Source: Climacium dendroides (Eukaryota; Streptophyta; Bryopsida; Hypnales; Climaciaceae). Taken from it: 64,000 nt of DNA. The notes beneath the pieces are model-generated. The model did not search any database. It was not told the DNA's origin and worked only from the letters and a program-made list of their open reading frames with translations. Where the stretch lies: positions 32,798,001 to 32,862,000 of the forward strand of contig OX467082.1 in assembly GCA_950106755.1 (NCBI GenBank), in the 5' to 3' direction. A program made the position numbers and the translations under genes. Every line of letters begins with the position of its first letter. Within the stretch, counting starts at the first letter, position 1. Of this stretch, positions 24,979 to 48,015 are shown piece after piece.

Positions 24979-25021
24979 CACTACAACAATGGCAGTGTTT
25001 TATGACTGCAAAATATGACTG
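24979..25021. repeat. left terminal inverted repeat of the 23-kb CACTA
   Basis: About 43 bases, beginning CACTACAACAATGGCAGTG, paired with 47973-48015. The same terminus, in the right-end version, recurs at 61971. Confidence 0.9.
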
Positions 25022-25259
25022 CAGCGAGTCGTAAAATCGAAAAATATGATTCATGCAGAAATCACTGTAGATGACTTGGGATATGACTGACTCCAGTCGT
25101 TTAGAAATAGTGGCTTCAGACATCAGTCATATTGGCAGTTATATAGGTTGAAGGGTATAAATGCCCATATTTAGCCATAGTATGCCAACATGGCGTATAC
25201 TTTGACTCTCATAGGGGGATCTTGACTTTTTGTTGAGTTGCTTGGACAAACAAAAAAAT

Positions 25260-25790
25260 CCTACGTGGAATATGACTGTGGCGAGTCATATTTTTTGATG
25301 ACGTGGAATATGACTGAAGTGAGTCGTATTTTTTAATGATATGGAATATGACTGAAGTGAGTCATATTTTTGGATGACATAAAATATGACTACGGTAAGT
25401 CATATTTTGCAGTGATGTGGAATGTGACTGTAATGAGTCATATTTTTTAGTGACATGGAATATGACTGTGGTGAGTCATAACTTGCAATGAGATGGAATA
25501 TGACTATGGTGAGTCATTTTTCGCAGTAACGTGGAATATGACTATGGTGAGTCATATTTTCCAGTGAGGTGGAATATGACTACGGTGAGTCATATTCGGC
25601 AGTGACTTGAAATATGACTATGTTGAGTCATATTTTGCAGTCACGTGGAATATGACTGCGGGGAGTCACATTTTGTAGTGACAAAATATGTGACTGCGGT
25701 TAGTCATATTTTCAGTGACGTGAAATACGACTACAACGAGTCATATTTCCTAGTGACATGACGTATGACTCCCCGCAGTCATATTTCATG
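25260..25790. repeat. left subterminal repeat array (TATGACT/AGTCATA)
   Basis: About a dozen copies of a ~38-bp unit contain TATGACT, 4-6 variable bases, then GAGTCATA. Many copies include TGAGTCA, a palindromic bZIP/GCN4-type site. In En/Spm the subterminal repeats are the TnpA binding sites; by analogy these should bind the TnpA-like product of this element. The same array appears reversed at 63420-64000. Confidence 0.85.
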
Positions 25791-26097
25791 TACAATACAA
25801 TTATTGAATTTTTTTGGTTACTGCTATGAGTGAGGTCCACTACTATTTTTTCTAAAAAAAAATCATATCCTCTTCTATGCAAAAGAAACCAACATGACAT
25901 TCTAATATCAAGTCCTAAACATGAATTTGCAACTCCTTCAATCACCAAACCTGGACATAAATTCAAAGATGCACTTCAAAGACATTTATTACTCAAGTTC
26001 AACACACATACGATAAACATTCGCACTGTAAACACCAAAGGTACACACACACACCACTTTATACTGCAGTGTGCAATCCACTACTTCATATCTTCAT

Positions 26098-29000
26098 TCA
26101 TTCAGCTGAAGGAGCCAAAGCTTCAATAGGCCACTTCGTCACAGACTTCACAGCGTTGCCTACATGCACCATAGGAGGGTTGTCGTTGTTGTTTGCTTCA
26201 TATAAAAGAACCATTTCCAATCCAGGAACCACAGATGTTATACTAATAGACACATTACCCTCTTCAATGAGCCATCCATGAAGTGAACCTCCTGCAACAT
26301 TAACTATGACTTTGTGTGCAATTACATTTTCTTCGGCCTTCTTATCATCGTCTACGTCGAACAATTTCACCTTTGACCCTACAGTCTAGGAGAGAAGGCT
26401 TTGATTCTATGAGTTCCGAGAGAACCTTCAAGCGATGTCTTTCCACCTTCTGCATCTTGTATTTGCATTGACAATACATGTATACTTTAAGTATACAAAC
26501 AATGGAGCTTCACTTTCACTAATTTCATTGGAAGGCAAAGAATATATTCAAAAATACATACCTAGGGCAATGGATTCTGTAATTGACTGATCGCCTTGTC
26601 CAAGAACATCACACAATATTCAATGTCGGAAGGATTTTGACTAAAAACTTCAAAGGGTCCTTTCAGGTTCTTTAGGAAGTTGTCTTCTGAAGCTAAAGGA
26701 TCCCATGCAGCAATGGGTAATACATTTGTACCAGGTAACTTAGATGTAGCTGTGGAATCCCAATCCACTTGAAGGACCCTAGCCGAGCCATGGGTTGGAT
26801 CTGGAATCATGTCAAATAAATCATGCAAGTCTCTCTTTCCACCACCAACTTCCCTTTCCCAAAGAAAACACCACTTCATAGGTGTTCCATGAGCTAGGAA
26901 TCGAGCCACTTCCTGTAGAAGCGCCTCTCCAATCGGAGCCCATATCCTGACATCAAATCGAGAATGGAGCATTGTTACAAACGCTGCACACTCAGCCCGT
27001 TTCTTAATTTTTACTTTAAACTCTCTATCATAATGGATTGTACCATCGGGCCTCCACTCTTTTTCCTCGTGCAGTGGTCGGATGTCACACAGAAAACCTA
27101 GGACATTCAACACAAGTATCTTTCTACGTGAATCATCCGAAACTCTCACCGGTGGAAACTTCAGCTTCCTTGACATATTCTTCTTCTTTGGAGGTTTGCC
27201 AACCTTCGCAGCCCTCATTGCCCCCCTCCTTATGGGAGGCTCCTCCTTTGTGAATTCCGAACTAAATTCTGAACGTTCTTGTCGAGACCCTCCTGCCCCA
27301 GTCTACATGCACATCAATAGTTTAGCATTCACTGTCATTTACATTCTACAAAACATGAATTCAACAAATACAAGAACAGAATATCAATTACAAATTATAC
27401 ATACATGTGACTTAGAAGCACCTACGGCTACTCACACAATAACTACTCTAATCACCCGTGCTTATACATATTAAAATATTAGTGGCCCTCTTCAGAAATG
27501 GTGAAAAATTATTAGCCACCATAGCATGCAACAAAATATACTTCACCACAGTCACATAATGATAAATAAGAATACTCATATTCATACGTAGTGTAATACA
27601 TAAGGACCTTCTTAAACACAAGAAAATTAGCACCTCGTAAAACAGACAAATAAAAGTAACTTCGCAAAGTTATATACAAAGACATATGGCTAATACAACT
27701 TACATATAAGTTAATATGACTCCCTATAGTTACACAATATGAAATACAACTTCCATTACTTATATATTAAAAAATTCAACTTCCATTACTTATATATTAA
27801 AAAATTCAACTTTCATTAGTTATATATTAAAAAATGTTACTGCCATCTACTATATACTACAAAATATGACTATTATTAGTTATATTCTATAAAATATGAC
27901 TAGCACCAGTCATATTTTACAAATTTTGCTTGAAGACAGTCATATATTGTAAATTATGACTGACACCATGCATATACTACAAATTTTGATTGAAGGCAAG
28001 CATACATTAAAAATTATGACTGCCACTAGTCATAGTATATGCAAACACTATAAGTTATTATGACTCTAAGACATACTAATGCTTCCTATTCCACATGCAC
28101 GTCATGCACAACTCATACACATATATACACAACATATTCATTAACATGAACCTCCCAACCCTATGTAGAATACTCTTTTTTATAAACAATTAACTCAACA
28201 AATGAAGCAGTGAATACACTCATGCTAGTCCATCTCATCTTTGAATCATGTTGCACCTCCTTTGTCTTCTCACCAGCATTCCCTCTAGTCAATGCTGCAC
28301 GGCTGGATTGAAGACTTCTGTTTGTGCCCAATTTCTCAACCTCGCCCTTCCTCTTCTTTACACTTACATGATCATTTTTTCCTTTTGTAACGCCAACTGG
28401 TTTTGTACTTGCTTGAACTGTTGGCAAAGTGTTCCCATTTTTCTTTACATTTTCCACCTCATCAATAGCATCTTCATCCTTTAAAGTCACAATCACATTA
28501 ATAATTCAGTTGTTGGGATTTCATGTCTAACTTCCTCAAATGACATACAACTCTGAACACATACAATGGCAACAAAGCCTATTCAAGTACGTTGAATGAC
28601 ATTGAAGGGCTTATGAACTTCGCACAAACCTCTATTGCCGCATCCATTTCACTCAGCTCCCCTTTAATAGTTTCTTTAAATGTATACAATTCATTTCGCA
28701 CTTCTTCTATGCCTTTACCAGCCAACCTTGAATTACTCATTGCCCCTCCTGAACTTGACGAGCGGATGTACAATGATTTGTCCGGTGAAGCAAGCTTTGC
28801 TTCCACTTCCATTTGAGTAGGGGGTCTACCCAAATGTGCAGCCTGCAAGGAAGGCAGTCCTACATGTGTTAATTTCATGACCAACACAATCAAACGTACT
28901 TAAAACACTAAGAAACATTGACAATAAATACAATATTTCACCTCCTCACGCATGTATCCAATTACAAGTGAAAATACTAACATAACTTACTATTTAGAAA

Positions 29001-31574
29001 TGTAAATTGTCATATTGTAAACCACGTACAACTTCATGTAATTCTAGGACTACCTACATATGACTATACATTGTTACCTTTGTATCTTAATATGAGTACA
29101 TGTAGTCACATGCAAGGCTACATACAAGTGCAGTTAGACACAATACTGTTGAAATATAATTTCATGTACATCAATGTCTATTCATTATGATTGCAAGTAC
29201 TCATAGCACCATCTTATTCATCATTCTATGTTGTACTGAACATTTCCAATTCCTGGCTAAACATTGTCATTTCCCAAAAAAACTTTGCCTTGTATAGATG
29301 CTCAATTCAAGAATCAATGATTGTGAAAATAATACTACATACACAATAACATGCATCAACTACAATGACAGCAAGGCAAACGTCTCTTTTACTTACAAGG
29401 CGTGATTTAACTTCTAGCTCAGATCGCCCACTATAGGACACATTTTGCACGGTCTGTTGTGCAACCTTCATACGTTCAGAATATGCTACTTTGTCTGTCC
29501 TCTTGATGAGCTTCTTGAAGTTCTCAACGTGGTGTGCCTTCACAGTTTTTGGAATGGGAGCCTCAGCTTCTATCAATTTCTTCATGTTTGCCCTCTTCAT
29601 CTTCATTTGTGACCTCAAAATGCGGAAGAATACATTTTCAGATACATCGCCTTTTCCACCACGATACTCGAACTTTGACGCCATTTTCTCCTTGATTGCT
29701 AAAAGTAGAGGTCGAGGATGCGAATTGAAGTCATCCACACTCCAATCCAAATCACGAGAATACCCACGAAGCTTTGTCAACCAATCCGCCCTATGCACTC
29801 CCATAGGACAATCCATAAGATCAACTTCAACCCAATCTCTGTCATCAACCTTCTGTAGATTCCTTCTCAACTGCTTGAGATTGGATTGTCGTTGAAGACT
29901 TGTGCTTCTGTCCACATTCCGAAATTCCTCGCCTTCAGTTGCACTCAGCTTCCGCATCTTCTCACGTAATTCATTTGGGTTAGCTCCACTCTTTGCCATG
30001 CGCTTCAATATACTGACTTCTCGTAACTCCAACTCATCTACTACATCGGTAGAGAGCTCGTCATTTGGGCCATCTCCATCATCTTCCACACTGAAGTGCT
30101 TGTCCAAGTCTTCTTCAGATTCCTCCTCCATCATTGTGTCCTCAGTGTCATCAAATAACAAATTATCCTCTTCTGCTTGTGTCGTGACCATCACGTCCTT
30201 TGATGACGACATCGTCTTCTTCTTTGTAACTTTCTTGGGCCACGGCCTAGGGTGATGTTGTTGCTGTTCAAGCACCTGTGAAGGCAAATAAAAATAATTG
30301 ATTATATTGTAGTAACTATTACTTGTGACTGCAACCAGTCAGAGAAAATCATTTGTAACTACAAACAGTCACCAAAAATCATTTCTAACTACCAACAAGT
30401 CACGGAAAATCATTTCTAACTACAAACAGTCACAAAAAATCATTTCTAACTACCAACAGTCATAGAAAATCATTTCTAACTACAAACAGTCACAAAACAA
30501 AATTTTCGACTTCCCTTGAATTCTCAAATATTATTTGTAACTACAAGTAGTCACAAAAAATCATTTGTTACTTGGCTTGCAGTCACAAAACATCATTTGC
30601 GACTGCAAATAGTCACCAAAGACAATGCATGACTTGACTTCCAGTCACAAAATATCATTTGCAACTGCAAACAATCACAATAGAGAATACTTCACTACAA
30701 ACAATCACAATGGATCAATATTGACTGCTACAAAGTCAATAAACAACAATAATGACTAAAAACAGTCATAAAACATGATTTTCTAGTCAGAAGTCTACAT
30801 ACTGTTGTCATTCATGACAATAGTCACTCACGAATGGTCATTTGAGAATACAATATATCTTATTCGGTCATTACGAAAGTACTGATTTTCTCTAACCTGT
30901 GATCAATCACATGTGCTCACGTGACACTCAAATGACTTTAAACTTCTTCTTTTTTTTTAAAAAAAATCCTATAAAACCACTTGCACAACTTGAAGAACTT
31001 AGAAATGACGAAGACCAAATTTCTAAAGAGAAATCATGAGTCCTATAAATGGTTGCACTCTTCTATAAAAAGTGTCCTTTGCAATAATCCACATATGCAT
31101 GGCAATTGCAATAAAACAACGCTTCAACAATGATGGAAAATTTTCCCAATATTCCATTAATTATATGCATTTCAATATAACTATTACTTGCATTTGGGAA
31201 GGAATTCATCTAACCTTCAATGTATGGTACTCTCCCTTTGATGCCTCTTCCTCTACTTCTTTGTCACTATCTCCTGAGTTGATGCCACAACTCCCCCCCT
31301 CCACAGCCTTCTTCGTTGTCGCCCGTGTATGCCTCTGAAATGCTGGGAACATAGTGCCAGAGCTCTCCCCTCTTTTTCCTAGCCTTATTGCTTGTGGCTT
31401 CTCAAGGTGCACGTCGCGGCTGCTCTCAAAAATCCCCGCAAGCTGATTAGAAGTCATTTCCAATATAGGAAACGTAATTGCTGGAAAACTAGCAATTGTG
31501 CGAAATAATTCCACTTGCACATCATCTGACAGATTAACTATCTGTCTTGTCAATTTCACCAAGATATTCTCCAT
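26098..31574 (-). CDS. TnpA-like CACTA protein with inserted FCP1-like domain
   Basis: Exons inferred on the minus strand are 31574-31215, 30275-29397, 28842-about 28635, about 28480-28200, about 27302-26562 and about 26382-26098. The first joins (TLK|VLEQQQ and SRL|AAHLGRPP) keep frame with clean GT/AG borders. Exons 2-3 resemble the plant Ptta/En/Spm transposase family (PF03004): the YSERMKVAQQ region, followed later by HLGRPPTQMEVEAKL. The last exon resembles the TNP1/EN/SPM-like domain (PF03017): GSKVKLFDV, then GNAVKSVTKWPIEAL. Between them exon 5 encodes an FCP1/NIF-like domain, described separately. An acidic Asp/Glu-rich stretch lies in exon 2. In En/Spm this partner protein binds subterminal repeats in the nucleus. 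Exon 5 ends in TAG immediately before a GTATGT donor, so the last exon may not be joined in frame. Confidence 0.7.
26562..27302 (-). CDS. FCP1/NIF-type HAD phosphatase-like exon, catalytic Asp lost
   Basis: The order of motifs fits plant FCP1-homology (NIF, PF03031) proteins: KILVLNVLGFLCDI, then KKRAECAAFVTMLHSRFDVRIWAP, then KWCFLWE, then ARVLQVDWDSTA, then a C-terminal helix ...YCVMFLDKAIS. True FCP1-like phosphatases carry DxDG(T/V) in the first motif. Here the first Asp is Asn and the second is Leu, so phosphatase chemistry should be lost, although the fold may persist. A basic stretch (KPPKKKNMSRKLKF) precedes the domain and could act as a nuclear signal. The exon lies within the TnpA-like gene of the 23-kb element. 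The acceptor at about 27303 (CATGTAG) and donor at 26561 (GTATGT) are visible. Most likely a captured host exon; the alternative is an ancient part of this transposon lineage. Confidence 0.75.
   Translation of the reverse strand, partial: TGAGGSRQERSEFSSEFTKEEPPIRRGAMRAAKVGKPPKKKNMSRKLKFPPVRVSDDSRRKILVLNVLGFLCDIRPLHEEKEWRPDGTIHYDREFKVKIKKRAECAAFVTMLHSRFDVRIWAPIGEALLQEVARFLAHGTPMKWCFLWEREVGGGKRDLHDLFDMIPDPTHGSARVLQVDWDSTATSKLPGTNVLPIAAWDPLASEDNFLKNLKGPFEVFSQNPSDIEYCVMFLDKAISQLQNPLP
27751..27840. repeat. 30-bp tandem repeat, three copies
   Basis: The unit beginning TTCCATTACTTATATATTAA is 30 bases long and repeats exactly at 27751 and 27781, and with two changes at 27811. It lies in an intron of the TnpA-like gene. 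Confidence 0.9.
30320..30730. repeat. internal array of AACTACAAACAGTCAC units
   Basis: A unit of roughly 30 bases, 'aaaatcatttctaacta' plus 'aacagtcac', repeats about ten times in the intron between TnpA-like exons 1 and 2. The CAGTCA core relates it to the subterminal arrays, although it lies 5 kb from the element end. Confidence 0.75.
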
Positions 31575-31599
31575 AGTTCTGAATCCTAGAGCCCTGATG

Positions 31600-33270
31600 T
31601 GATTGATTTAGGTCAAAGAACACATGGGTCAGACCTCTCCATTATGTTTCAAACTAATGACACTTCCCTATAATTAACTTGAATCTGTACTATCCTTAAT
31701 CATGATGAGGGACAACAATTTTGACTTCAATGAACTCCTATAGACAACTCCATTTATGTTTCGAATATTTAGTAGAGCTCAATATCTTACCTCACTTCTC
31801 TAAGGTTTGCCAATTGTGCCGCAATGTCCAACAAGCCTAAATCACTCAATTTTTGTGAGTTCCTCTAAATTTTTTCTTTTCTCAACCTCTCGTACTCATT
31901 GATCTCAGAAGCCATGCTATTGTGGGAGTTTACATGGACAAGTCCTACTTAGAAAGGAAAAAATTGCATCTTAATACAATAGTGACATCTCAAGCATTAA
32001 TGCTAAGTGCTAACATCTTCTTCATTCATATATGGTATAGAGTAGGAAACAGCAAGATACCATTATATAACACATATTACAATTAGAAACTACAACTATG
32101 CAAAAAAATGAATACCACTGTACTAAATAGTCATCCATTACATTTTACTTCAATCAGAATTGAAAACACGCATAATGTTTTAAACTTTTATGACTATCTT
32201 CAAGCCACTGTACTCTTATTACGCTACACTATTCTTTGAAGGCCACATGAGATAATGCTAATACAGAAACATATAGCTAATTTTATTCATGAAGTCCCAT
32301 TCTACAGTGAAATGTGTCTACCTTCGTAGACACCATTATATTCTAGAAAATTGGTAATAGGGGAAAAAAAACATTCCTCGGTAGACAATTGTTTTCATTT
32401 CGTCAAAATCAAAAACAAGTTTCAGATGAAGAAGATTAGAAGAGGGCCCATATTTCTCTATTGCTTGAGATAAGAAGAATGTTCCATTTGAATTAAAGTC
32501 ATTCAATGAACAATTAAATATATTATTGTAAAAATATGTTCATCATCACATTCATGATTCGTAATATATAAGCTTTTTTCTGTTAATTGCAATGTCTCCT
32601 TTCTTTAGGAGTCATAGATTTTTTCAGTGAATTGTCACAGTAGGACAATGCTATGCCTAAATTTCAACATAATTATGAAACATCGCAAGATTTTTCTTCA
32701 TTGAAGCTATTGAAATTTCATTTGTTTTGAGAATTAAAAGAAATTTCCAATGTCCTCAAAATCTTAAAAAAATTAGAGTAAAATATTGAAGTGCATTCAA
32801 CCTCATTCCAAGAGTTCTACCAATGACGTACCGGAAATTGATACAATTGTCAAATCTCGTGGCTTTACGACTCTATGATGCAGTTCTCATGTTGTTCTAG
32901 GAAAATTGAACACTTGCACACGGAGAACTTCCAATTACAAAATGCATCGTGCCCTAATTTTCCCAAAAAACCAAATATTTTCAAAAAGTAATCCTTCATG
33001 GTGTCCTGCATGCTCATCCAATTTGGGAGAAACATCCGTAAGCAGACACAGGCTATGGTAAAGGAGACTATTTCTTGGTTGGACACACGATTTTGCAACC
33101 TACATTGAATGGGAAGACAAAGTTGGTGAGGCTTATAAAGACCAGCAGGTACCCAACTGCACCTTACCTTCTCTAAGATGACTACATAAATTAAGTAGGT
33201 ACGACTATAATCCAACCGCAGGCTAGGAAACGAAATCAAAACAAATGGTGTCCCAGTCAGTGCTGTGATC
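31600..33270. other. non-coding interior of the 23-kb element
   Basis: AT-rich sequence upstream of the TnpA-like start codon. It presumably holds its promoter or a 5' leader intron, but no clear TATA box can be assigned. The minus-strand ORF 33272-32865 (135 codons) has no recognisable domain. Confidence 0.4.
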
Positions 33271-33273
33271 ACA

Positions 33274-33429
33274 TATGCCGTTCCGCCAGCAACAATCTCA
33301 GCCTCAACCTCAGCAACTTATGCAACATATCAATGACATACTAGAACCTCTACTGCAGCTGCACTTGCTAAACACAAGCGACAGACTTGGAGAACTCCGG
33401 AATGTCCTCTGTAGGTTACAGAGAATCTG
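33274..33429 (+). CDS. small Gln-rich ORF, unidentified
   Basis: A 51-codon ORF runs from ATG at 33274 to TGA. It begins MPFRQQQSQPQPQQLMQ and continues as an amphipathic leucine-rich helix (ILEPLLQLHLLN, then LRNVLCRLQRI). Codon composition and GC content are unlike the AT-rich surroundings. It could be another captured exon next to the Aha1 fragment, but I do not recognise the family. Confidence 0.3.
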
Positions 33430-33647
33430 ACTTGCACATGGCTTCTTGAAGTACTAGGTGGGACAAATACATGCGAATTCTAATGATGTACAGTACGTCC
33501 CAAGTAGACAAATCCCTGTAGAAATGAAACTCATAATCTCATTACTGAACACCAACAAACTTAGAATCCAACAAACTTAGAACCCAGCTGATTTGATGAA
33601 GGAGCTGCGCGAATCCCACCAACATCTTCCGGTTAGTTGAAGCACAT

Positions 33648-34097
33648 GTGCAAACCCCAACAAACTTAGAATCCAACAATTTCGAATCCTTCTTCAGGCA
33701 AAACAAGTTACCTCAGGTAGAAGGTGGACTACTACCCGTGATAGCGAAGGCCTTTGTTGCGCTCCTTTCCACAACCCAGTTTGGAGAAGGTGATAAGAGG
33801 TGGATTGTGCAAGAGAGACCAGATGGAGCGAACGTACACAATTGGCACTGGAATGAGAAGGACTGCTTACCATGGGCCAAGAAGAGGCTTGGTGAGTTGC
33901 TAGAGAATGTCTCGATTCTGGAGGGTGAAGGTGGCTTGTGGATCCAAACAACAAATGTCGAAACTCCAGAGAAGTCGGAATCTTGGGACAGTCTTCTGTG
34001 CACAAGCTCGGCGGCAATTTTCGAGGCAAAGCTAATGTTAGTAGAATGGAATTCCGAACTTCTCCGTCATGCAATCTGCCAAACAGAACCTAAATGA
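33648..34097 (+). pseudogene. Aha1 N-terminal domain fragment inside the CACTA element
   Basis: From about 33780 the frame reads FGEGDKRWIVQERPDGANVH, then NWHWNEKDCLPWAKKRLGEL and LENVSILEGEGGLWIQ. This is the diagnostic start of Aha1/AHSA1, the Hsp90 ATPase activator: GEGDxRWIVxERxDxxNVxNWHWxExD. Similarity stops after about 61 residues (near 33962), where the conserved EAYVNxRKGK strand should follow; the remaining residues are unrelated and end at a stop. The upstream residues also do not match and have no proper start context. It is therefore a captured, truncated fragment, not a functional co-chaperone. It lies between the two divergent transposon genes. Whether it is transcribed cannot be told. 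Confidence 0.8.
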
Positions 34098-34099
34098 AT

Positions 34100-35260
34100 T
34101 TGAGTGTCAACACTTACAGGTCAGACCATGCCGCGGGTGTAAAGAACTGTGCAAGAGTGCATGTACAGAAACTCATACCTGCTGTTGGTAGTGACTCCGT
34201 AGGGCGTGAAGAAGATGGGCAAGAACGAGTTGGCGGTGGGCGTGTAAAAGATGGGTGAGATCGAGCTGCCTGAGCGTTTCTAAACTGCATGGAAGAACCT
34301 CCGACTAACACGCGTCTGATGAAGGCGGAGCCGCCCTTGCGGCCGGAGATCTCTTGCAGTTTTTGGTGGACACGGAGTACGAGTGATGGAGCATGCGACG
34401 GTGCGACGTAATGAAGACAAGTCTTTCTGAATTTGCCGCACCTATTTCCGCCTGCTTGCATGAGAATCCGAGGTTCGTGTGATTCTGTGTGCTGCTTGCA
34501 TGTTGCCGCTGTGTGGCTGCGAGAGCTCCATGTCCAGCGCGTACATCCACGTCCACCGAATTGTCAACGAAATTCTCATCGGGACCCACAGTTCCACCTT
34601 ACACGGTTGACAATGCAGGATGCGTGATGGAGAACGACTACCCCACATTTCAAGCCCAACCAGCCCTACCACGACGACCTGAAAGTTGTTTAAGGCAATC
34701 GGCGTTTAAACCGGAACTTGCAGTGGGACCCGATTAGGTACCAAAATAGTACCGTCACCTAACCTTCACTAGAACTCGAAGTGTGCCACTTAATGAATTG
34801 TCCACGCCAAGAAGTAATCTACGAATAGATAGTTCTATTCCTAGGTCTATTGCGCTGCAATTACATGTACGTCAAGCACTTCTTCCGGGCGGATTCTTCA
34901 ATTCCTTCCCAAAGTACTGACGTTGTCACAGACATGTGTTTTGAGGTTTGAGTGCAGAGCAGGACAGGGTGGATGACGGAGTTCAAGAAAGAGCCGGACT
35001 GCTGGTCTTCTCATGCAGTTTCAGTCTAACAATATTGTAATTGGGATCCCGAGTCACGAAACTGTAGTTGCGATCGAAGGTACGTACACTCACTTATCTG
35101 TCGTGAAGGATCCGAATCAAGAATGCGATGCATAGTAGAGCTTGCGTTGATCTCAAATCTGTGCTCTCACTGCTCGGTGAGCTGTAGTCACGATAGAAAC
35201 ATAATCTCAATTGAAAACATTTCTTGTTGTGAAGGGCTGGCAATGCAAGGAGCAGGAATA
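34100..35260. other. GC-richer interior segment, no gene assigned
   Basis: This stretch has clearly higher GC than the rest of the element and several overlapping ORFs on both strands (about 70-115 codons), none with a domain I recognise. It may be the continuation of captured host sequence, for example promoter or 5' gene parts, flanking the Aha1 fragment. Confidence 0.4.
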
Positions 35261-35261
35261 A

Positions 35262-35478
35262 GGGTGGTTGTCGTGAGCTTTATGGCTGTGCATTCCGTTC
35301 TGACATTGAAACGGCTGATTTCGCGTGCGCTGCAACTTTCGTCGTCTGAGGACGAATTCGATCAGGAGGAGGACAACTTCATCGAGATTTTTTCGGTGAG
35401 GAGTTCCTTCTCGTCATGCGTGATTTGTTGTGTGCTTGGGGTCTTGGTGATTGTGAATTGAGGTGCATTGTTCTGCTT
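35262..35478 (+). repeat. first copy of a duplicated exon-like block
   Basis: This 217-bp block is repeated at 36423-36657. It encodes MAVHSVLTLKRLISRALQLS, then SSEDEFDQEEDNFIEIF, directly before a TCG|GTGAGG donor-like site. Copy 2 differs by a few bases and by an 18-bp in-frame insertion. Confidence 0.8.
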
Positions 35479-36422: not shown

Positions 36423-36657
36423 AGGGTGGTCGTCGTGAGCTTTATGGCTGTGCATTCCGTTATGACATTGAAATTGCTGATTTCGCGTGCACTGCAGCTT
36501 CCGTCGTCTGAGGACGAATTCGATCAAGAGGAGGACAACTTCATCGAGGAGGACAGCTTCATCGAGATTTTTTCGGTGAGGAGTTCCTTCTCGTCATGCG
36601 TGATTTGTTGTTTGCTTGGGGTCTTGGTGATTGTGAATTGAGGTGCATTGTTCTGCT
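36423..36657 (+). CDS. second copy of the duplicated block: acidic leader exon, possibly tnp2 exon 1
   Basis: An ATG at 36444 opens a 44-codon frame beginning MAVHSVMTLKLLISRALQLP. An acidic segment follows (SSEDEFDQEEDNFIEEDSFI) and the frame ends at 36575 before TCG|GTGAGG. Relative to copy 1, 18 bases encoding EDSFIE are added. Its place, upstream of tnp2 and diverging from the TnpA-like gene, suggests promoter plus first exon of the rightward gene. The phase does not fit the acceptor at 38724 directly, so the link is unproven. Confidence 0.4.
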
Positions 36658-36659
36658 GT

Positions 36660-38230
36660 TGTATGGGAGAGGAATGCTAATTTGAAATGTTGTGCATGGA
36701 CCGTGGATATGGGAATGGTTGAATTCTTCTGGATTACGGTATTGTTAGACGAATCAAATGCACGTGAGGATGAATTCAGATTTGGACATTGTATGCAAAG
36801 TTAGGAGGGTTCAAATGTTTATTGGGATTGGAAATGAACCTACAATCAAGATAAGGGCTAGACTGATTAGTCCTATTGGTGCTACTAAATGAACTTACAT
36901 GTGATCATATATTTTTTACAGTGCAAGCATAAATGCTTTTAGCCATTGTCGATGTACTAGTGCTATTTGAGGTGGAAAAAAAGTCTTCACAATCATTGGA
37001 AAAAAAAATACTCTTCTGCAAAAAGTTATAAGCATATGTAAGTTTACTTCATGACACCAGTAATAGAACAAACCAGTGTTTTGTCCTCACGATTGGAGTG
37101 GAGACTGGCTTTCTGATGCACTGTTTTAAACTTTTGGTTGACCTATAATGGTGGACGAAGTGCTACAAAGATAGATAAAGAGTGACATTACCACAATTTT
37201 TTACAAGTTCATTTGCGTTTTCAGGTGGATACTAGTATTAACCAAGTACCTTGTGTGTTTGGAAAGTGCAGAATGCTTAATTCTAGGTTGAGCAAATTAC
37301 TTTGCACATCAAAGTACTCTTGAGGGCTTATGAGCATCCTTGGAATTGTTTTTTAAATAAATCCAAGGTCATTTCATGGTCATTGTAATTTGTTAATTGG
37401 AATGTCATAGAGATTTAAACGATGTTAGCTTACTCCAACTGAAAATCAACGTTATTTAAGCTACAATTTCCAAATGTTTAAACAATATTCTATGATTTTT
37501 TAAAGTTGGAAGTTATTTGAAAACCTAATATTGTCCAGTGAACTAAGTTCAAATACAGACACTACAACCATGAAATACGTCATAGCTAATGGATATTTTA
37601 GAATAATCTTGAATTGCCATTGGGTGGTCTAAAAACCTTTTGATGTAATTCGGTCAATGTAGGTGGCCATTTGAGGCTTCAAGGTTAATGTTGAAAGTTT
37701 CAAAACAATTAGTTTTGTTACCTCTTATGCTATTTTTTGTTATGCATTCCATATTGTAGTATTATTTATAGGTGAATTGTTATTATTATTTTTTTCCAAA
37801 AAATGAAATCATATGTATTTTATTAGTCATAAGAACTTGACGTTTATGTAGGAATTTTAAAATTATCGTAGATTTCTAAATAATTTTTTTTTTAAATGAA
37901 ATCAAATGTGATTTATCCATATGAATTTGGAAGTTTCCTTGTATGTATGTATTATAGTGACGAATGTGATAGTGTAAATTATTGTAGGTTGAAATTAAAA
38001 AATTCTATAAAAAAATGTAGGATATTTTATCATTTTTCAAATTCGAGTAGCCTTCATTTCTATAGTTGCATTTGATTTTTAGAAGGACAACTTTTTTATA
38101 GTTCAAATTTAGAAAAATGAAATGGAGGTTTCACTAGTGAACATTTGTTGAAAGTACATATTGTGTTGTTTGGAAAGTAGGCATCTTATATAGTATCATA
38201 AAAAATGCTCGAGTTGTCTACGGAGCCATA
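36660..38230. other. AT-rich interior of the 23-kb element
   Basis: No ORF with recognisable features. This is probably intron or leader sequence between the duplicated leader block and the first tnp2 domain exon. Confidence 0.4.
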
Positions 38231-38640
38231 TCATGTAACAGGAGTTATATATTGATGTATGTGACTGTACTAAGTCATGTCATGTAACCTGAGTTATATT
38301 TCAAGTTATGTGACTATACCGAGTCATTTCCTGTAACCTGAGTTGTATATTGAGTTACCTCACTGTACCGAGTCATGTCATGTAACTTGAGTTATATCTT
38401 GAGTTATATGACTATATAGAGTCATGTTATGTAACTTGACTTATATCTCAAGTTACATGACTGTACCAAGTCATGTCATGTAACTTGAGTTATATCTTGA
38501 GTTATATGACTGTATTGAGTTATGTCAAGTAACTTGAGTTATATCTGAAGTTATATGACTGTTTTGAGTCATTTGTAGGCATTGAAATGATTGAATGTAG
38601 TCATTCTAAATCATTTCTATGACTTTGGAGTAGTCATAGC
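38230..38640. repeat. internal array with GAGTTATAT / ATGACTGTA / AGTCATGTCATGTAAC units
   Basis: Roughly seven copies of a ~55-base unit lie just upstream of the tnp2 zinc-finger exon. The ATGACT/AGTCAT core resembles the subterminal repeats, so transposon protein could bind here as well. A regulatory role is inference. Confidence 0.7.
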
Positions 38641-39046
38641 CATTTTGCAATGGTCATTTAATTATTCAATTATGACTAATCCAGAAGTTGATTTGAATTT
38701 TTGACAGTGGAATTTTCTTTGTAGTGCATAGGGGGAAATTGCGCACCATGTCTAAGGTAGAGCTTCAAAGCTTGCGAGATCTACGATTATGGCAAGAAGA
38801 AGAAATTCAAGCAGATACCATGCGTCTAACGAAATACCCATGCCCATGCATGAAGTGTGCAGGCGGGAAAGTGCTTGATAGACGTACAATTCGAAAACAT
38901 CTTCGATGCAAGAAGAGGGATCCAGCGTTTACAGCGTCTATCTTGGTAAGGACTTTGAAGAAAACCAATTGTTCACTTGAGAAATTTTATGCAGTTACCA
39001 ACGTTCTGGCTTTCTTGCATTCTTAAACTTTTAGTGACTTGTATAG

Positions 39047-39645
39047 GCTTTGTGGAGACCCTATGTAGAAGCTTCCTCTTTCGTATCTTTACAAACTTTT
39101 CTAAGAGAGAAACGTACTTCAGCAAATGAGTCGTTCAAAGGAACATCTACAAGAGTAATGGCTTTAGAGAGGTGGAGGTTAAACGTGTATGATGGACAAT
39201 GGTGTGATATGATGGACCCATACCAAAACTAACAACATTTTCCTATTGGAAAAGAAATTGGGACGTGAAAGTATCAATGTTTCCTTTCATGGGTTGGGGT
39301 CTTTTTGCACTCCAACCTGCTAAGAAAGGGGAAGAATTACTTCCCTTTATAGGACCGCAGTACACTGTAGCAGAGTATAAGACTTTGAAGAAGGGACAGC
39401 CTCGCATGAAGTCGTATGTGATGCAAGTAGAGGCAGACTTGTATGTAGACGGAGATGTACTGAAGGGAAATGTAGCTGGCTTTATTAATAGTTCTGTAGG
39501 CCGAGAAGAGTTAGGAAATGTCATATGGGAGTTTTGCATGCTGCCCAAACCATGGAACAACTTGGAGTGGGGATATGTAATGACGTTAACGTCAAGGGAC
39601 ATTATGGCTGGAGAAGAACTCTATGCACATTACTATTTGAATTGA
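39047..39645 (+). CDS. SET-domain ORF inside the first tnp2 intron
   Basis: An acceptor (TTGTATAG) at 39046 opens a frame in phase with the preceding zinc-finger exon, beginning ALWRPYVEASSF. It stops at 39232, but the frame carrying the SET domain is already open from 39208, so one base change links them. The SET part reads FMGWGLFALQPAKKGEEL, then the YVDGDVLKGNVAGFINSS region, then WGYVMTLTSRDIMAGEELYA, ending HYYLN at a stop. This matches the SET order: GxG, the GN.A.FIN motif, then RDI.AGEEL.xxY. The usual RFINHSCxPN is altered (AGFINSSVG), so S-adenosylmethionine/lysine methyltransferase activity is uncertain. The natural stop after the last SET strand suggests an alternative transcript: CACTA zinc finger joined to SET. 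SET domains methylate lysines, usually on histones. Confidence 0.75.
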
Positions 39646-40615
39646 AAAATGTACGTTCAAATGACTAGGAATAATCAATTTTTCCAAGAAATTGTGATCA
39701 CTCACAAGTAGTAGTCATTCATATTTTGTAGTTAGAAATATTATTGAGGCCATTTGTCATTTGTAGAATATTATGATATAGTGCCAAGAAAATTAAATGA
39801 TTGGCATGTGTTTTGACAAAAGATAGTATGAGGATGTTATTGTGTATTCATGGCATAGTATGTCAAAATGATAATTATTTTCACTGAATTCCAAGCATAC
39901 AGTTGAGTAAAGAAAATTGAAATTACTGTCAATTAATGAAAAGTGAAATTGCAAATCATTTCTTTCAAGTAATAAATTATATTTTGGAGATTTGATTGAA
40001 ATGCTGATGATGAGTATCCACCAGTATGGAGTCCTATATGTTTGTATGATCATGTCCAACGAATTTACGTGATTCAATGATGAATTTGACAAAAAACTTA
40101 TATGTGCATATGATGCATATATACCAATGTAGGATGACTATGCTCCTGTGGACCTCCGATTGCGTAAACGAAGAAGTTTTCGAAGAGAGCATGTTCAACG
40201 AGACCCCTCTCCAAATGCAGGAGAAGTGGATGTGCTTCGTATGGTGACAGAGTGCTTCAACAAATATGACGACATACATGTCAATGGAGAAGGAACGAAG
40301 AATATTATAATTGACCCAGTTGAAGATTTAGCAATCGAAGATGGTATGGGGATGAATGGTTTACTAGATGCATATACTAACAATATTGATGACGGAGTGG
40401 ATGCCAACAATGATCGGATGGAAACAGAGGGGACTTCAACGAACACGGAGGATGTTGCTGGCATAGACATGAATGTCCTGTTGCGAGAAGCACAAACTCT
40501 GCTTTATGTAGGAAGCAATTCCAACCGTTTGATGTCCACACTCATGTTGCTAGTGAGTTGCACTACTCATGGTGTCCCTAATAGCTTTGTTGATGAGTTG
40601 TTGAAGTTGTTAACA

Positions 40616-40618
40616 TAG
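40616..40618 (+). other. in-frame TAG in tnp2 (element 1)
   Basis: The codon follows ...DELLKLLT and is followed in the same frame by TILPKDNSLPKSYY, which aligns with LLPENNNLPKTYH in the second element's tnp2. It is therefore a nonsense codon inside an otherwise continuous exon. Confidence 0.85.
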
Positions 40619-43079
40619 ACAATATTACCAAAGGACAATTCACTTCCCAAATCTTATTATGAAGCCAAAAGTCTTCTGATGAAGCTGGAATTGTCCTATA
40701 ATTCCATACATGCGTGTAGAGATGGATGTTGTTTGTTCCGAAACGAACTACATGATGCAACAGAGTGCCCTATTTGCCACAAATCCCGATATGTAGAGAA
40801 CTCCAACACAGTACCAGTGAAAGTATTGAGACATTTCCCTTTGATTCCCCGATTAAAAAGAATGTATAGCAATACGAAGTTGGCAGAGCTCATGAAGTGG
40901 CATGTAGGTGGGAAAAGCAAAGACAAGGTTATGAGATCTATAGTGGATTCCAAGGCTTGGGATCACGTGAACAACAAGTGGCAGTGGTTTGCCGAAGACA
41001 AGCGCAATGTCAGGCTTGGCCTTGCATTGGATGGTGTGAATCCATTTCAGAACCAAAGCCTTAGCCATTCAACTTGGCATGTGATAATGCTCAACTACAA
41101 TCTTCCTCCTTGGTTGGTGATCAAAAATTTCTTTATGATGCTCACATTAATCATTCCAAGGAAAGAGAGTGTGACAGAAAAGAACATAGATGTTACCTTG
41201 CACCATTGATTGAGGAACTTCAAGAACTATGGAGAGGGGTTGATTGCTTGGATGGATCTTCCAAGAACTCAAAAGTGAAATCATTCAAGTTACATGGCAT
41301 TTTGATGTGGACGGTGAACGACTTTCCAACATATGGATTAATCTCCGGTCAAGTAACAAAAGGATACAGGGTATGCCCTGTATGTGGGCCAAATATAGTG
41401 ACTAGGCATTCTAAAGCCTTGAGGAAAAACGTGTATATGGGGCACAGACGATACTTGCCAATGATTCATCAATGGAGACAACAGAGGGGTAGATTTGATG
41501 GTGAGGTGGATGTAAGACCTCCACCAAGGAGGATGACTGGTCGAGAACAACTTCATTATGCACAAGAGCGAGAGGAATGGTTGACAAAGTCTCGTGAAAA
41601 TGGAATGGAAGAATTGCCAGATCCAGTACAGAAGCACGGAGTGAAGAGGAGGCATGTCTGTATGAATTGCCGTATTGGAAAGTAAGTTTTTGGGGGGATT
41701 TGATGTCTTATGTAAGTTAGAAGATAGTTTGTTGAACTGCAAAGCAGTGGAGCACTCTAATTACATTTGTTGAATTGGAAACCAGAGTATCATAACTAGA
41801 GGTAGTCATATGAATGAAATGGTTGAATGTAGTCGTAGTGGATGCAATTTGTAACACCCTTAAGTCATTTTGCAGGATCTTTTGATTCGTCACACATTGG
41901 GTGTCATGCATTGTGAGAAGAACATCATCGACAATATGTTGAAAACCTTATATGGAGAGAAAGACTCGTTAGAGGTCCGTTTGGACATGAAAGAGGCAAG
42001 TGTACAAAAGCATCTGTGGCCCATACCTGGAAAGAAAATAGGGAGCATCATATTACCTCGTTCATCTTACACATTCACGAAACAGGAACGTCAAGTCTTT
42101 GTAGATGGAATCCATTCATTGCGAACACCCACCCAATACGTGGGCCAACTGAAAAAGCGTGTGCACATGAATGGGATCATAAAGAACTTGAAATCTCATG
42201 ACTACCATGTCCTCATGCAGCAAATGCTACCACTATATATTCGTTCAATGCTAACAAAGGAGGTCCGCACGGCTATAATCATGTTGAGCCATGTATTCAA
42301 GAGGATATGTGCTAAGACCATTGATACTAGTGGTCTTGAAGAGTTGAGGTCAGATATGGTGATAGCATTATGCATGCTAGAGAAAGAGTTTCCACCATCT
42401 TTTTTTGACATCATGAGCCACTTAGTGGTCCACCTTGTAGAAGAGGTAGAAATTTGTGGTCCCGTTCATATACGTTGGATGTATCCCATTGAAAGGTATT
42501 TGAAGACATTAAAAGGATATGGCCGAAATCGGGCTCGACTAGAGGGTAGCATGGCTGAAGGCTACGCTGTAGTGGAAGCATTGGGTTTCTATATTGAATA
42601 CATGCAAGAGTATACTGTGACCGCCCGAAGAGTGTGGGATGACAAAGAAGATCCGTCAATGTATGATGAAATCTTAGAAGGTAGCGGACGAACACGAAAC
42701 CTATCAAGTGAACTACGGCAATGGATTCATGAGTTTATACTGAACAATGCGGTTATGCAGCACCGTTGGAGGAATGGAGGAGGTAAGGCCTCGTGAAAGA
42801 AATAATTCATGTACTACATGAACACATGAAAAATCGAATGTATGCAATTCAAATACTTGTATATGCAATTCTGACTGTACCTAGTGATGTTGTAACATTT
42901 ATTGTATTCACCATTATTGTAATTGTATTTTGGACAACAATGAGTGATGTAATTGCATTTGTGACTCGACCTAGTGATGTAATTGCATTTATGACTGCAA
43001 CAAGTATTGTAAGTGCTTCTGTAGATACATTTTTATTTTTGTTTTTGTTATCTTTCAAAGTAAAAGACTAATGGTCCAG

Positions 43080-45440
43080 CGAGTTAGCTTTAAAAGTTGT
43101 TTTGAGTAAGAACTAAGTCAAATAGACATAGTAATGTGGAAAGGACCATTATACAGCCGGAAGTGTAGAAGGAAACAGTTAAAACTAATAGATAGGCCGT
43201 AACCGCAGATTGGTTAAGGGCCAAGAACTATAAGACTAATTGTCAGGAGCATTTTGCTCTCTCTCTGTCAGGCGTTTGCCGTGATTGCCGCCTTATCTAT
43301 TGTACTTGTGCATTCCTTCAATAATATAGTCTATTCGTCTTATTTCTTTGTAAGTCTAATTGTCGATTAGCTAGGGATTGGCTTCGGCATTTTGTTGTTT
43401 TATTTGGAGCAGTTGCCAGTGATTGGCTTTGTCTCCATTTTCTTTTGTTTCTTTGGTGTCTGTCTAATTGTCGTGAGCTGTTATCTTGTCAAATTGTCTT
43501 TGTGTTTGTGAGTGCAGTGAGTCATCAGTAAAAGAGACAAGTAGACAGTTAGCGAGTATCGAACTTGTCCAATTGTCTCTTAGGTTGTTTGTGAGAAGTG
43601 GTGAAATCAGAGAGGAAGTTGAAATTGTCAAGTCAGTGAGTGTAGTTGTTCTTGTTTATTTTGTTTAAGTGTTATGCAGTGTGTGTGTAATGTCAAGTTA
43701 TCTTTGTTATTTTGATGCAGAGGGTATTTGCATGTGTATGTCAAATAGATGTTTAAGCCAGTGATTGGCAGTCAAGTTAAGAGAGCATGACAATTAGCTA
43801 GGGATTGGCGTTGTCCATTATCTAAATAGTCTATTAGCCTTGCTGTGAGAGCATTGTTAAAGTCTAATTGTCAAAGCTGTGAAAGCGTATTAAAAGAAGG
43901 ATGCATTTGTGGAGTCAAATAGCCAGTGATTGGTTGTATTTGTGTTCTAAATGGTTGTCTACTTGTCTGTGAAGGAGAGTAGGCAGAAGAGCCAGTGATT
44001 GGCGATATTAAAAGTAAGAATTAAATCAAATAGTCATGTCAAATGGTAAGCTTGGATAAGGCCGAGTGTGTTAATTGTGAAGTCAATTAGACAGTTTAAA
44101 AGAGAGCAATAGAAGACGAATAGCCTTTGGAAGTTTATAATTAAAATTAAACAACTAGTGAGTGGTTGGTGAGATGTCAAATTGACAGCTTATGTAGGCG
44201 GATGGAGCCTAAGTTATCAGCTGGGTATGAGCTAATTTTGCGAGGACAAATAGACAGTGAATCTCGAGAGGAATTAGCCAGGGATTGGCGTGTGATTCTT
44301 TAAAATTGACAAGTTTAGTAGTCCAGTGGAAGTAACTGAGATTAAGTTTGAGAGGAACTGATTGTCTAATTGTCTAGTTCGTGATTACAGTAAACGATTT
44401 CCCGTCGTAGGTCCAAGCAGTTAGCGAAATAAAAGTCCAATTGTCTTCATTGCTAAAAAGAGAATTAAGTTGGAGATCAGTGAGACAGTCATTGACAAAT
44501 TGATATATGTTTTAACCTGTGGTGATGTTGTTATCAAAAATTGGACAAATTGACCTACAGAGAAGGAATATTATGTTGGTGAAATACAGACAATTAATCT
44601 GTCCTTGTTGTTTTCTTGGTTGTTGGTTGTTGAGATGTCAAGTAGTCAAATTGAGATATTAGCAAAGTTATAGAACATTGGTATAAGCTGTGAGTAGTTA
44701 TGTGTCATTAGAGCAGGAAGACCAATTGACTGATAGGTTGATAGGAGCCTTTGTACTTGACCATTTGACCTTACTGATGACAAGCAGTAGAAATGTATAG
44801 AAACATGGAAGATACAGAATTATTAGCAAGTTCTATTTAGTTGTGATACAAAGATATAAGCTATTGAGTATGACAAATTGACTTGCTAAAGCGGATGGAG
44901 TTGGAACGGGAGAAAGCTACAAGATAAGTCTAATTGTCTGGAACGAACTACATATAAGCTTCTTTACCTTTGCATACTCCGCATATTGGGACCAATTGAC
45001 AATTACAGACTTGTGATTTTGCATTTTGTATAAGTAGTAATTAGCGGTAGCTAAGTAGCTTACTGGACCAATTGACCAATTGCCAAATAATTTAATTAAG
45101 GAATAATTAAAGAAGATGGCATATCTATATATTATATGTGACTATTTGATTAGGTCGATAGAATGCATTACAGGGCATGAGACTATTTGACCCACCCCGA
45201 CTATTTGACACACCCAGTCTATTTGACATTAGCGCACTAGAATAAGACTGTACAGCATATCATGGAGTCTGCATTCATTGGGTTTTGGGACGGAATACTA
45301 GTATTGGCTAATATACCCCCTTGCACATTTACATTCACATTTAATTTAATTTAATCTTTAGAATACTAAATTGAGAGAATTCCTACAAGGAAAGTGACCT
45401 TAGAAACAATACAATAGACGATTTGACCATTCCCAAACGA
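43080..45440. repeat. intron block dense in TTGTC/GACAA and 'gccagtgattggc' motifs
   Basis: Between the DUF4218 and DUF4216 exons lies about 2.4 kb filled with variants of AATTGTC, GACAATT, ACCAATTGAC and AGCCAGTGATTGGC. It also has a possible polyadenylation-like stretch near 43320. No ORF is recognisable. The motif density resembles the subterminal regions of another element, suggesting a nested insertion, but I could not find matching ends. Confidence 0.5.
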
Positions 45441-46449
45441 AAGAACTACCCTTAGGGAATTCCTTGGGTTTTTGATCCAAGCCAATTCCTATGCTACAGC
45501 TTCTATAACTTTACGTAGTATAGGTTTTGTATATGAAAATGAACTCATATGTTCAATTATTGAATGATGTAGGAGGCATGAGGATGACATGTGCTATCGC
45601 GAAATAGAGCGACATCAATATAGGTGTAAAAAACATCAGAGACGAGTGAAGTACCCGATTGAAATGTGCGACGAAAAGTTCCACATTTGGTTTCCGAAGG
45701 CCGTGCTACGAGCTATAGAAGAAGGTACAGAAGAAGTGGACGAAGATGTAAGGACACTAATGTTACCTCCATCAAATCGAGCCAAGTCATACCGTTCCAT
45801 ATATGCATTTGGAAACCACATTCGTGTTCGAAGCGTTGAGAAGCAATTGACAACAATGGACTCGGGAATAGCGGCAACCTTTCGACAACTCTACCGAACA
45901 GGCATAAAAGACAGGAACATGAAGGACTCAGAGTTAGAGTACGTGGGGTGGGTGGAGGAAATTCTATCTGTAGATTATGGGCAGTTTGACGTAGTGGTAC
46001 TTTATTGCAATTGGATGGTTGCAAATACCAAAGGTGATGGGGCCACCATGAAGCGTGATGAGTATGGATTCGCCAGTGTGAACTTTGATAGATTGATTCC
46101 ATACTCAGCGTAGTCATTTGCCTTCCCTCTCCACATTGAACAAGTATTTTTTGCATCGGACAAGGCCAGAGATGGATGGGAAGTTGTACTCCATAGTGAA
46201 CCCAGAGGTGTCCGGTCATTCTCTAAGCATGAAGCATCAATTGAAGTGGAGTGCATATCCTTGGGGAAGTCAACAGAGTTCCACGGACTTGAAGCCACAG
46301 ACTTGTATGAAGACCTCATACCGAAGACACCCATCTTAAGTGATGCAGTGGAAGTAGAAGCTGATGTGGTTGCAATTGCATTACAATGTCTACAACAAGA
46401 CGATCTACATGTAGATGACCTACAATATTGTGATGGAAATTGTGATTGA

Positions 46450-47340
46450 GTTGTAGACTAAGCCCAGAAGTATAATACATACAGTTCTATTTCGTATTCC
46501 AAAGTGAGTATTTTGAAGAGCATTGTATTCAATACATAATACACAAATATAGTACAGAAGCATGCTTGTCATCATAGGAACATGCCTTACAAGGGATATT
46601 GTACAGTGTACAGTAGATTCAATAGTGAGTGTGCCAATGCAGAAGTTGGATTGGAGAACATGTTATCAATCAAATTCAATTTTCAAACTATAAACGTCAC
46701 TTGTGTTTACAGAAATTCATTAACTTGTACGTTCAATATGGTCACAGTCTCAGAATGCTAGTGTTGCATGAAGTACACTGGAAGGTGAATTAGAAACTAT
46801 AGTAAGGAATTAGAGAAAGTGAAGAATGCATACTGAAACCTTTTTCTTCACCCTTTCAATGTAATTGATAGAAAATATTTACTGTACTGTAGTTTCATGT
46901 AGTGAACTACTTTTTTTTTTTGTACTTCCGTGATAAACCATATGAAGAATTGGAATCCATTTATGAAAATATAATTATGTGCTACCTCAAAAAAATTTAT
47001 GTTTCTTTAATAATAGAAAGAGGACACAGTAACACATAACCTTATTTGAAAAGGCATTTAGCGAAGTCATGCATACGCCCCGAAGAATGACCGTGTGGCC
47101 TACATACATCACCAAAAAATTAGATTGCATAACTTTTTCTTTAACTACACCAGAAGAAAAAAGAATAATAATATAAGAATAGGAATGCAGAGTATGACTA
47201 TCAAATAAATATTCACGCAAAATAATGAGAATATGACAAGCTAAGCTATGACTAAGCATTCACCTACCACTAGAACTTCCCAAATTTTCATCATGGTACT
47301 CGTAAAAAAAAAGGTCACTAACTACTTAAAACAATTCAAA
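46450..47340. other. tnp2 3' flank, no gene seen
   Basis: AT-rich sequence between the DUF4216 stop and the right subterminal array. It presumably holds the tnp2 transcript terminator; I could not assign a polyadenylation signal with confidence. Confidence 0.4.
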
Positions 47341-47990
47341 AAAATATGATTGCAAAGTATGTTTGACAAAATAATATTACTAACAAAAAATATGACTACA
47401 AAATACGACTAGCTGCAAAATATGACTGAAAAATATGGCTAACAAAAAAATATGACTGCAAAGTATGACTGGCAAAAAAACATGACTGCCAAAAAATATG
47501 ACTGCAAAGTATGACTGGTAAATAAACATGACTGACAAAAAATATGACTATAAAATATGACTGAAAAATATGACTGACGGAAAAATATGACTGGCTTACA
47601 AATATGATTGAAAAATACGACTGACAGAAAAATATGACTGGAAAACACGACTGATGCAAAATTGCGACTGGACACTCACCTACCACTAGAACTGCCCAAA
47701 TTTTCATCATGCTACCCGAAAAAAAAAATGCAAGGAAATATGACTGCAAAATATGACTAAAGGCAAAATATGACTAGTAATATGACTATACGTTCCCTAA
47801 ACATGTTCCCAATTGTTCCCTATGAAATACTTTGGTGTTCCCCATGGGTGTATAGTATACATATATAAAGTACACAGTGAATATATGACTAGCAGTCACA
47901 TTTTGCAGTCATAATTCTACAAAAGGTTTTAGCCTCGAAGAATATGACTGCAAGCAGTTGCCAATCGTCCTTAGTCATAATTTTGCAGTC
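47340..47990. repeat. right subterminal repeat array
   Basis: Many short units (AAAATATGACTG, then CAAAAAAATATGACTGGC variants), spaced 15-30 bases, precede the right terminal repeat. They share the TATGACTG core with the left array but lack the paired AGTCATA in most copies. Confidence 0.8.
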
Positions 47991-48015
47991 ATAAAACACT
48001 ACCATTGTTGTAGTG

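Follow-up and report, generated by a model that had tools for sequence, protein, structure and literature searches.

Do the host-type domains carried by a plant transposon represent passing cargo, or can they become working parts of the element? This question is raised by a CACTA element at positions 24979..48015 of a 64,000-nucleotide window of the Climacium dendroides genome (G000:C1:32798001-32862000 of a 412.6-Mb assembly, in which all genome searches were made; "the window" denotes this whole stretch). A preliminary description had reported three such domains in the element: SET, FCP1/NIF-like (here NIF) and Aha1. Here, we show that the SET and NIF exons recur in one lineage of the transposase gene tnp2, with a common position and phase, and that they are under purifying selection. 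Judged from these comparisons, both are almost certainly maintained parts of the element.

The element encodes tnp2 (plus strand) and a TnpA-like gene (minus strand). The SET exon (39047..39645, plus strand; 197 codons and a stop in open copies), delimited by copy alignments, lies in intron 1 of tnp2, in phase 0 with tnp2 exon 1 (38748..38945, plus strand; 66 codons, donor TTG/gtaagg). In the window copy, a SET-core open reading frame (ORF) can be read at 39208..39645 on the plus strand, with a Pfam SET match at 39208-39642 (E 1.3e-9) and with AlphaFold2 and PDB matches. As the exon contains a 5-bp insertion here that is found in none of five aligned sister copies, this ORF is the 3′ part of the exon; the preliminary description had placed SET correctly in a tnp2 intron. 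The NIF exon (26565..27302, minus strand) belongs to the TnpA-like gene, as described, and matches Pfam NIF at 26562-27299 on the minus strand (E 6.1e-5, 23.2 bits vs a cut-off of 21.8). Splice signals in seven aligned copies put it in phase with the C-terminal exon of that gene, and both exons lie in a single ORF in the relative P0035. The earlier remark that two of the domains are in phase with transposon exons therefore applies to both SET and NIF.

Sister copies were collected by a genome search with the left 1.5 kb of the element (75 rows, several per copy; best 40 of 2,499 candidates scored). This led to six more copies. Five are complete over the SET region; in the sixth, c40b, insertions break up the element and the SET region falls outside the fetched stretch. 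The SET exon is present in 5/5 complete sister copies and the NIF exon in 6/6 fetched copies. All of these, like the window copy, belong to subfamily I. The diverged subfamily II is represented by an element within C37:1165500-1190499, read across three adjoining stretches. Its CACTA ends and GTA/GTA duplications stand 21,756 bp from each other, and both SET and NIF are present, stop-free in both matched stretches. Across the genome, the SET protein yields 76 rows that correspond to 70 loci; 61 are full-length at at least 80% identity, 47 of these 61 without a stop in the core. The NIF protein yields 89 rows, and an opposite-strand NIF lies on the expected side, 8-45 kb off, at 63 of the 70 SET loci. 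Only 4/70 SET loci are without tnp2 among the matches listed.

A control search with tnp2, in which the best 150 of 808 candidates were scored, separates 67 loci of this lineage (at least 81% identity) from 83 loci at 52-59%. Among these, a same-strand upstream SET accompanies 66 of the 67 lineage loci (within 2.5 kb in 64) and none of the 83 others, and a divergent NIF at 8-45 kb is found at 62/67 vs 0/83; among the 83, three show a NIF somewhere within 45 kb in a different arrangement. Two more diverged members, one with a SET match of 42% interrupted by 8 stops beside a tnp2 of 81% (G000:C38:21827977-21832073), the other with a partial SET match of 43% about 11.6 kb from a stop-free NIF match of 59% (C3:40368719-40381035), hint that the SET-NIF association may be older than the two subfamilies. 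In a protein-database search limited to proteins sharing short words, 64 SET relatives were retrieved at E <= 1.1e-19, followed by the next at 3.4e-5; viral_contigs and genome_contigs yielded no SET relatives. A Foldseek search of viral proteins retrieves SET proteins too (best E 2.1e-7), which is uninformative on origin.

Recurrence is accompanied by constraint. Between the subfamilies (10 vs 16 copies), the SET exon has a non-synonymous divergence (dN) of 0.072 and a synonymous divergence (dS) of 0.407, giving a dN/dS of 0.18 (bootstrap 0.11-0.28 on a 3 vs 3 subset); its p-distance is 0.121, compared to 0.306 in the 100 nt upstream and 0.291 in the stretch past the stop. Measured against the single full subfamily II element, dN/dS is 0.13 (0.07-0.24) for the SET core and 0.21 (0.14-0.34) for NIF, next to 0.15 for the TnpA C-terminal exon, 0.14 for the TnpA exon E3, 0.11-0.31 for tnp2 parts and 0.17 for the DUF4216 exon; two introns give 0.31-0.32. 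For tnp2 exon 1 the value is 0.17, and for the N-terminal part of the SET exon 0.25. SET and NIF, at 0.13-0.21 with dS 0.29-0.45, thus behave like transposase exons. Among the 6-7 decayed copies of subfamily I, SET has a pN/pS of 0.34 and NIF one of 0.40, both inside the span of 0.26-0.62 set by the other exons. In all these comparisons, pairs are non-independent and gapped or stop codons are excluded. The preliminary description had suggested looking for recurrence and purifying selection, and both are found, in tens of copies.

The SET exon probably serves as an alternative second exon of tnp2. Among 26 fetched SET exons, the TGA stop, the AG acceptor and the GTAAGG donor of exon 1 are each conserved in 26/26, and both the exon 1-SET and the exon 1-exon 2 junctions are in phase 0. 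The whole 197-codon exon is open in 20 of the 26 and broken in six (window, L043, L045, c38a, c41b and c35a); the loci L027-L046 in this set had been selected for a stop-free core. In the 16 subfamily II copies there is no ATG before codon 76, which is ATG in 1/16; 14/16 have an ATG at codon 80, on the border of the SET core, and codon 12 is TTG in 16/16. In subfamily I, ATGs before codon 72 occur at codons 38 (7/10) and 47 (1/10) only. Consistent differences between the subfamilies in codons 1-18 fall at codons 7, 9, 13 and 17 and are synonymous, except in one subfamily II copy at codon 17. Because the first ATG of subfamily II comes at codon 76 or 80, yet the part before it is constrained, translation most likely starts in exon 1. 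Taken together with the conserved, in-phase splice sites and the conserved stop, this suggests that SET is most likely fused to the transposase N-terminus by alternative splicing. Joined exon 1-SET ORFs gave 71 rows at E <= 1 in the protein database, the longest of 212 aa and none of fusion length, as is expected for unspliced genomic ORFs.

As a protein, the SET core is well defined. Its AlphaFold2 model has a pLDDT of 90.5, among PDB folds it comes closest to SETD8, EZH2 and MLL proteins (TM about 0.6-0.7), and in sequence-profile comparison MLL1 ranks first (E 9.9e-14), with ASH1L, EZH2 and SUV39H2 among the other neighbours; profile and fold thus agree on a SET domain. Tyr 70, Asn 94 and Tyr 142, which we take to be catalytic or cofactor residues of SET methyltransferases, are nearly invariant and align with MLL1 motif positions. 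The protein terminates directly past the last SET motif and seems to be without a post-SET region, a known feature adjoining SET domains.

A Pfam NIF match at E <= 0.01 is obtained with 14/17 family members. FCP1/SCP phosphatases have the catalytic motif DxDx(T/V); here the first catalytic Asp position is Asn (N65) in 17/17 members, with the register set by position, just upstream of the Pfam-aligned stretch. We therefore do not call the NIF part a phosphatase, and it seems to be catalytically dead, with the DxDxT motif lost. What stands of the earlier "FCP1-like" label is the NIF profile match, not the reading as an active phosphatase.

We propose that this CACTA lineage took up minimal SET and FCP1/NIF-like (HAD-type) domains long ago and has kept them as working parts; as a whole, this is the explanation we favour, and we regard it as reasonably probable. 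The tnp2 pre-mRNA would be alternatively spliced, joining exon 1 either to exon 2, for the transposase, or to the SET exon, for a fusion of about 263 aa that we name TAD-SET. Of the individual steps, this is the one we consider most probable. TAD-SET could then methylate a histone or another chromatin protein at or near the element, acting via the N-terminal piece that it has in common with the transposase, a step to which we give an even chance. The dead NIF part of the TnpA-like protein might bind a partner, perhaps in the transcription machinery, instead of removing phosphates, which is a tentative suggestion. Together, the two products may favour expression or mobility of the element against host silencing; such an anti-silencing role is a plausible hypothesis, to which we assign slightly less than an even chance. 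Equally tentative as the NIF step is the picture of a complete chromatin kit, in which the transposase N-terminal piece, spliced onto SET, would serve as a single targeting device for transposition as well as histone marking, and a dead phosphatase fold in the second protein would link the element to the transcription machinery.

A number of observations weigh against this proposal, and they are taken here together with the rival explanations. With respect to splicing, many external SET relatives start at a Met close to codon 12 of the SET exon, which may give the SET protein a start of its own in other lineages. No conserved AATAAA lies in the stretch from the SET stop to tnp2 exon 2. Exon 1 matches Transpos_assoc at E 2.2e-4 and 21.8 bits, under the curated cut-off of 27.7, and for the L033 fusion the ranking places a U-box model (E 7e-4, 20.1 bits) above Transpos_assoc (E 1.2e-3, 19.4 bits), both below cut-off; the "TAD" label therefore rests mainly on the N-terminal place in tnp2. 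The early Met of the external relatives leaves some room for SET as an independent gene inside the tnp2 intron, with its own promoter and start and without a tnp2 splice form, a reading that also draws on the conserved stop of the ORF. Such a gene would need a start codon, however, and the early codons offer little: TTG at codon 12 and no ATG before codon 76 in subfamily II, and the two scattered positions in subfamily I. Moreover, codons 1-11 differ consistently between the subfamilies only at 7 and 9, synonymously, and the SET exon follows exon 1 in phase 0. We consider the independent gene unlikely, though far from negligible.

With respect to activity, the Asn-His-Ser motif position reads Asn-Ser-Ser, and SET activity is therefore not assured. 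MLL and ASH1L are activating and EZH2 and SUV39H2 repressive, and because the profile neighbours of SET lie on both sides, the direction of any effect is unreadable from sequence. SET may thus act in another way, by setting self-limiting repressive marks or by modifying a non-histone target such as the transposase. For a self-limiting role, loss would be expected in the most successful copies, yet SET is kept at 66/67 lineage loci among the best 150 of 808, which is an argument only. We rate this reading as improbable to the same degree as the independent gene.

On the NIF side, the subfamily II NIF scores 19.7 bits, under the Pfam cut-off of 21.8, and a fold by AlphaFold2 was too poor to be used (pLDDT 41). 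All seven aligned subfamily I copies are damaged in the NIF exon, in its donor or in another exon; other subfamily I loci without NIF stops are present in the NIF genome search. In the window copy, the NIF exon ends in a TAG, where 4/7 copies have CAG.

The divergence within subfamily I could be taken to mean that SET and NIF are passive hitch-hikers: captured gene pieces without a role. In subfamily I, the divergence is 0.051 for both the SET core and the NIF exon and 0.038-0.080 for introns, with no clear split between coding and non-coding parts, and the lowest intron value belongs to the intron beside the NIF exon. Within subfamilies, the dN/dS of the SET exon is 0.42 (I) and 0.41 (II), and the copies include L027-L046, a sample selected from rows whose core has no stop. 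CACTA elements often capture gene fragments, as described in the available text of PMC8978399 and PMC13317346, and this element provides an example in its Aha1 fragment. Against this stand the between-subfamily dN/dS of 0.13-0.21, the conserved splice sites and stop, a SET exon far less diverged between subfamilies than the adjoining intron, and the SET association of this one tnp2 lineage (66/67 against 0/83 among the best 150 of 808). Hitch-hiking of SET and NIF is thus very improbable.

The Aha1 fragment itself (33775..33963, plus strand), a captured exon piece, lies between the two genes, as had been noted. Pfam Aha1_N covers 33600-34094 at E 1.1e-4, with 22.8 bits just under the cut-off of 23.6. 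Of the two matches returned by a genome search, one is the window copy and the other a host gene at C38:12596374-12596559, to which the DNA is identical at 187/189 positions within one exon-like stretch, confirming the Aha1 identity. The fragment is private to the window copy among the copies compared; c38a and c35a are without it. By these matches, it is an ordinary recent private capture. We therefore rejected a reading of three equal captures: the preliminary description, which had grouped Aha1 with SET and NIF, had itself named presence in a single copy as evidence against its idea, and for Aha1 this applies.

Finally, that SET and NIF sit on separate younger insertions with ends of their own, as the preliminary description had also foreseen, is exceedingly improbable, since blastn aligns both exons and their flanks as element body in five complete sister copies and shows no copy-specific breakpoints at either exon, even though one nested insertion does occur elsewhere in the window copy. 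This insertion (43020..45498; 2,479 bp, TG...CA ends, GCTTC 5-bp duplications) has no counterpart in five sister copies covering the place and is probably a solo LTR (long terminal repeat). Internal CACTACAA matches at 30693 and 37560 were considered as ends of nested CACTA elements and are unsupported, as copy alignments run through both places.

The element as a whole fits the CACTA/EnSpm type. Its 23,037 bp are bounded by CACTA-starting terminal inverted repeats of 36 nt with one mismatch (24979..25014, plus strand; 47980..48015, minus strand), which bears out the matching ends described earlier. The flanks of the window copy have TGAA in common, with exact 3-bp borders of GAA (left) vs TGA (right), a 1-nt offset; in the five complete sister copies, the 3-bp duplications are exact (TTA, CTT, TGA, TGC and ATA). 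Subterminal repeat arrays lie near both ends, the left one (25263..25787) of a AGTCATATT-type motif with period 38, the right one at 47337..47654. Pfam finds SET, NIF, Aha1_N, Transposase_21, DUF4218 and, weakly, DUF4216 over the element. The tnp2 gene continues on the plus strand with a Transposase_21 exon (40133..41682; E 2.5e-31 and 3.4e-34, a tnp2-type transposase), a DUF4218 exon (41864..42796) and a DUF4216 exon (45568..46113). A direct repeat of about 200 bp (35259-35476 and 36430-36650) in the intergenic spacer is single in c35a and c38a on the blastn map.

Judged by its reading frames, the window copy is a decayed relic and not intact. Its tnp2 is interrupted by an in-frame TAG (40616-40618) and shifts frame within 41065-41209; the subfamily II copy has these stretches in a single frame. 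The NIF exon closes with TAG, and the SET exon insertion and the nested insertion add to this. Several other loci keep longer open frames, with Transposase_21-exon frames of 546 aa in the tnp2 genome search. The remaining TnpA-like exons, all on the minus strand, differ in how well they are defined. The C-terminal exon (26093..26458; copy alignment, P0035) has a 2-bp insertion in the window copy. The large N-terminal exon E3 (29400..30275) matches no Pfam family and is present in 6/6 fetched subfamily I copies, split into two pieces in c40b, and in the subfamily II copy. The predicted middle exon E4 (28631..28845) is an uncertain model and probably wrong, with 4 stops in the subfamily II row and an uninformative dN/dS of 1.20 (95% 0.43-3.97). 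Another candidate, E2, was dropped, having 9 stops in the fetched subfamily II copy.

Outside the element, the window contains a tnp2 of another type (55416-59516, minus strand; Transposase_21, DUF4218, DUF4216), its N-terminal part in one 597-aa ORF with no intron or SET exon there. At 61971-64000, a further CACTACAACAATGG terminus resembles the right end of the studied element and runs off the window. Three copies of a frame with MGS(S/L)RLSRCC (6884-7276, 15745-16248 and 19843-20241), two of them near low-complexity glycine-/serine-rich frames, look like a small local gene family.

Few concrete systems bear on whether transposons answer silencing with enzymes of their own. This lineage makes a specific case open to testing: its copies number in the tens, it comprises two diverged subfamilies, the exon position is fixed and dN/dS is low. 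The other CACTA lineages of the same genome, which have neither exon at the matching place (0/83, best 150 of 808), serve as natural controls. One element can hold two kinds of captured domain, old kept parts and recent debris. That SET and NIF are kept by selection like the transposase suggests a transposon with its own chromatin tools; if the proposal is true, this transposon would make a chromatin writer from its transposase gene by splicing.

How does this compare with known systems? Plant CACTA/EnSpm elements have a domain set of TAD, Transposase_21, DUF4218 and DUF4216, optionally with Transposase_24 and Peptidase_C48, as given for angiosperms in the accessible part of PMC8978399. The present element resembles them in its ends, the 3-bp duplications of its sister copies, subterminal repeats, tnp2 domains and second, TnpA-like gene. 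It differs in the SET exon in tnp2 intron 1 and the NIF-like exon in TnpA, neither of which is in the domain lists seen of that source. Introns in tnp2, including a first intron gained in one clade, are described in the part of PMC4158355 available. Gene capture by Pack-CACTA and Tgm-Express, as far as these were covered, explains the Aha1 fragment. Pack-CACTA elements are non-autonomous and without transposase, unlike the present element with its tnp2 domains, and only the Aha1 fragment is similar. The usual fate of captured pieces is pseudogenization or loss, according to the text available of PMC13317346, and SET and NIF differ in having been kept.

SET methyltransferases have been reported in HarbingerS and MuDR transposons of Phytophthora (Kojima and Jurka 2014, as cited in the portion of PMC12730594 at hand). 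These are likewise DNA transposon lineages with a SET gene, of another superfamily and host group, HarbingerS having a Harbinger transposase in place of tnp2/Transposase_21. SET-carrying DNA transposons are thus already known as a kind, and the CACTA variant with SET and NIF appears to be new, because no SET- or NIF-carrying CACTA family was recognised in the literature covered, most subscription papers lying outside that coverage. Fungal DNA transposons that carry TET/JBP, EnSpm included (same source, to the same extent), are also CACTA-type elements with an epigenetic enzyme; theirs is a DNA dioxygenase, here it is a SET domain. Primate SETMAR (Metnase), as outlined in the material consulted, likewise joins a SET domain to transposase sequence, but it is a host gene with a mariner-type transposase and not part of a transposon. 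A further parallel is offered by VANDAL MULEs. Their anti-silencing proteins, VANC, and the Ulp1 domain that some have captured (KIU) are treated in the accessible sections of PMC13317346. For VANC, motif-specific hypomethylation is reported, unlike the CACTA lineage, which is known here from its sequence; in both cases, a captured host domain has been kept over long times, and VANC is said to relieve silencing.

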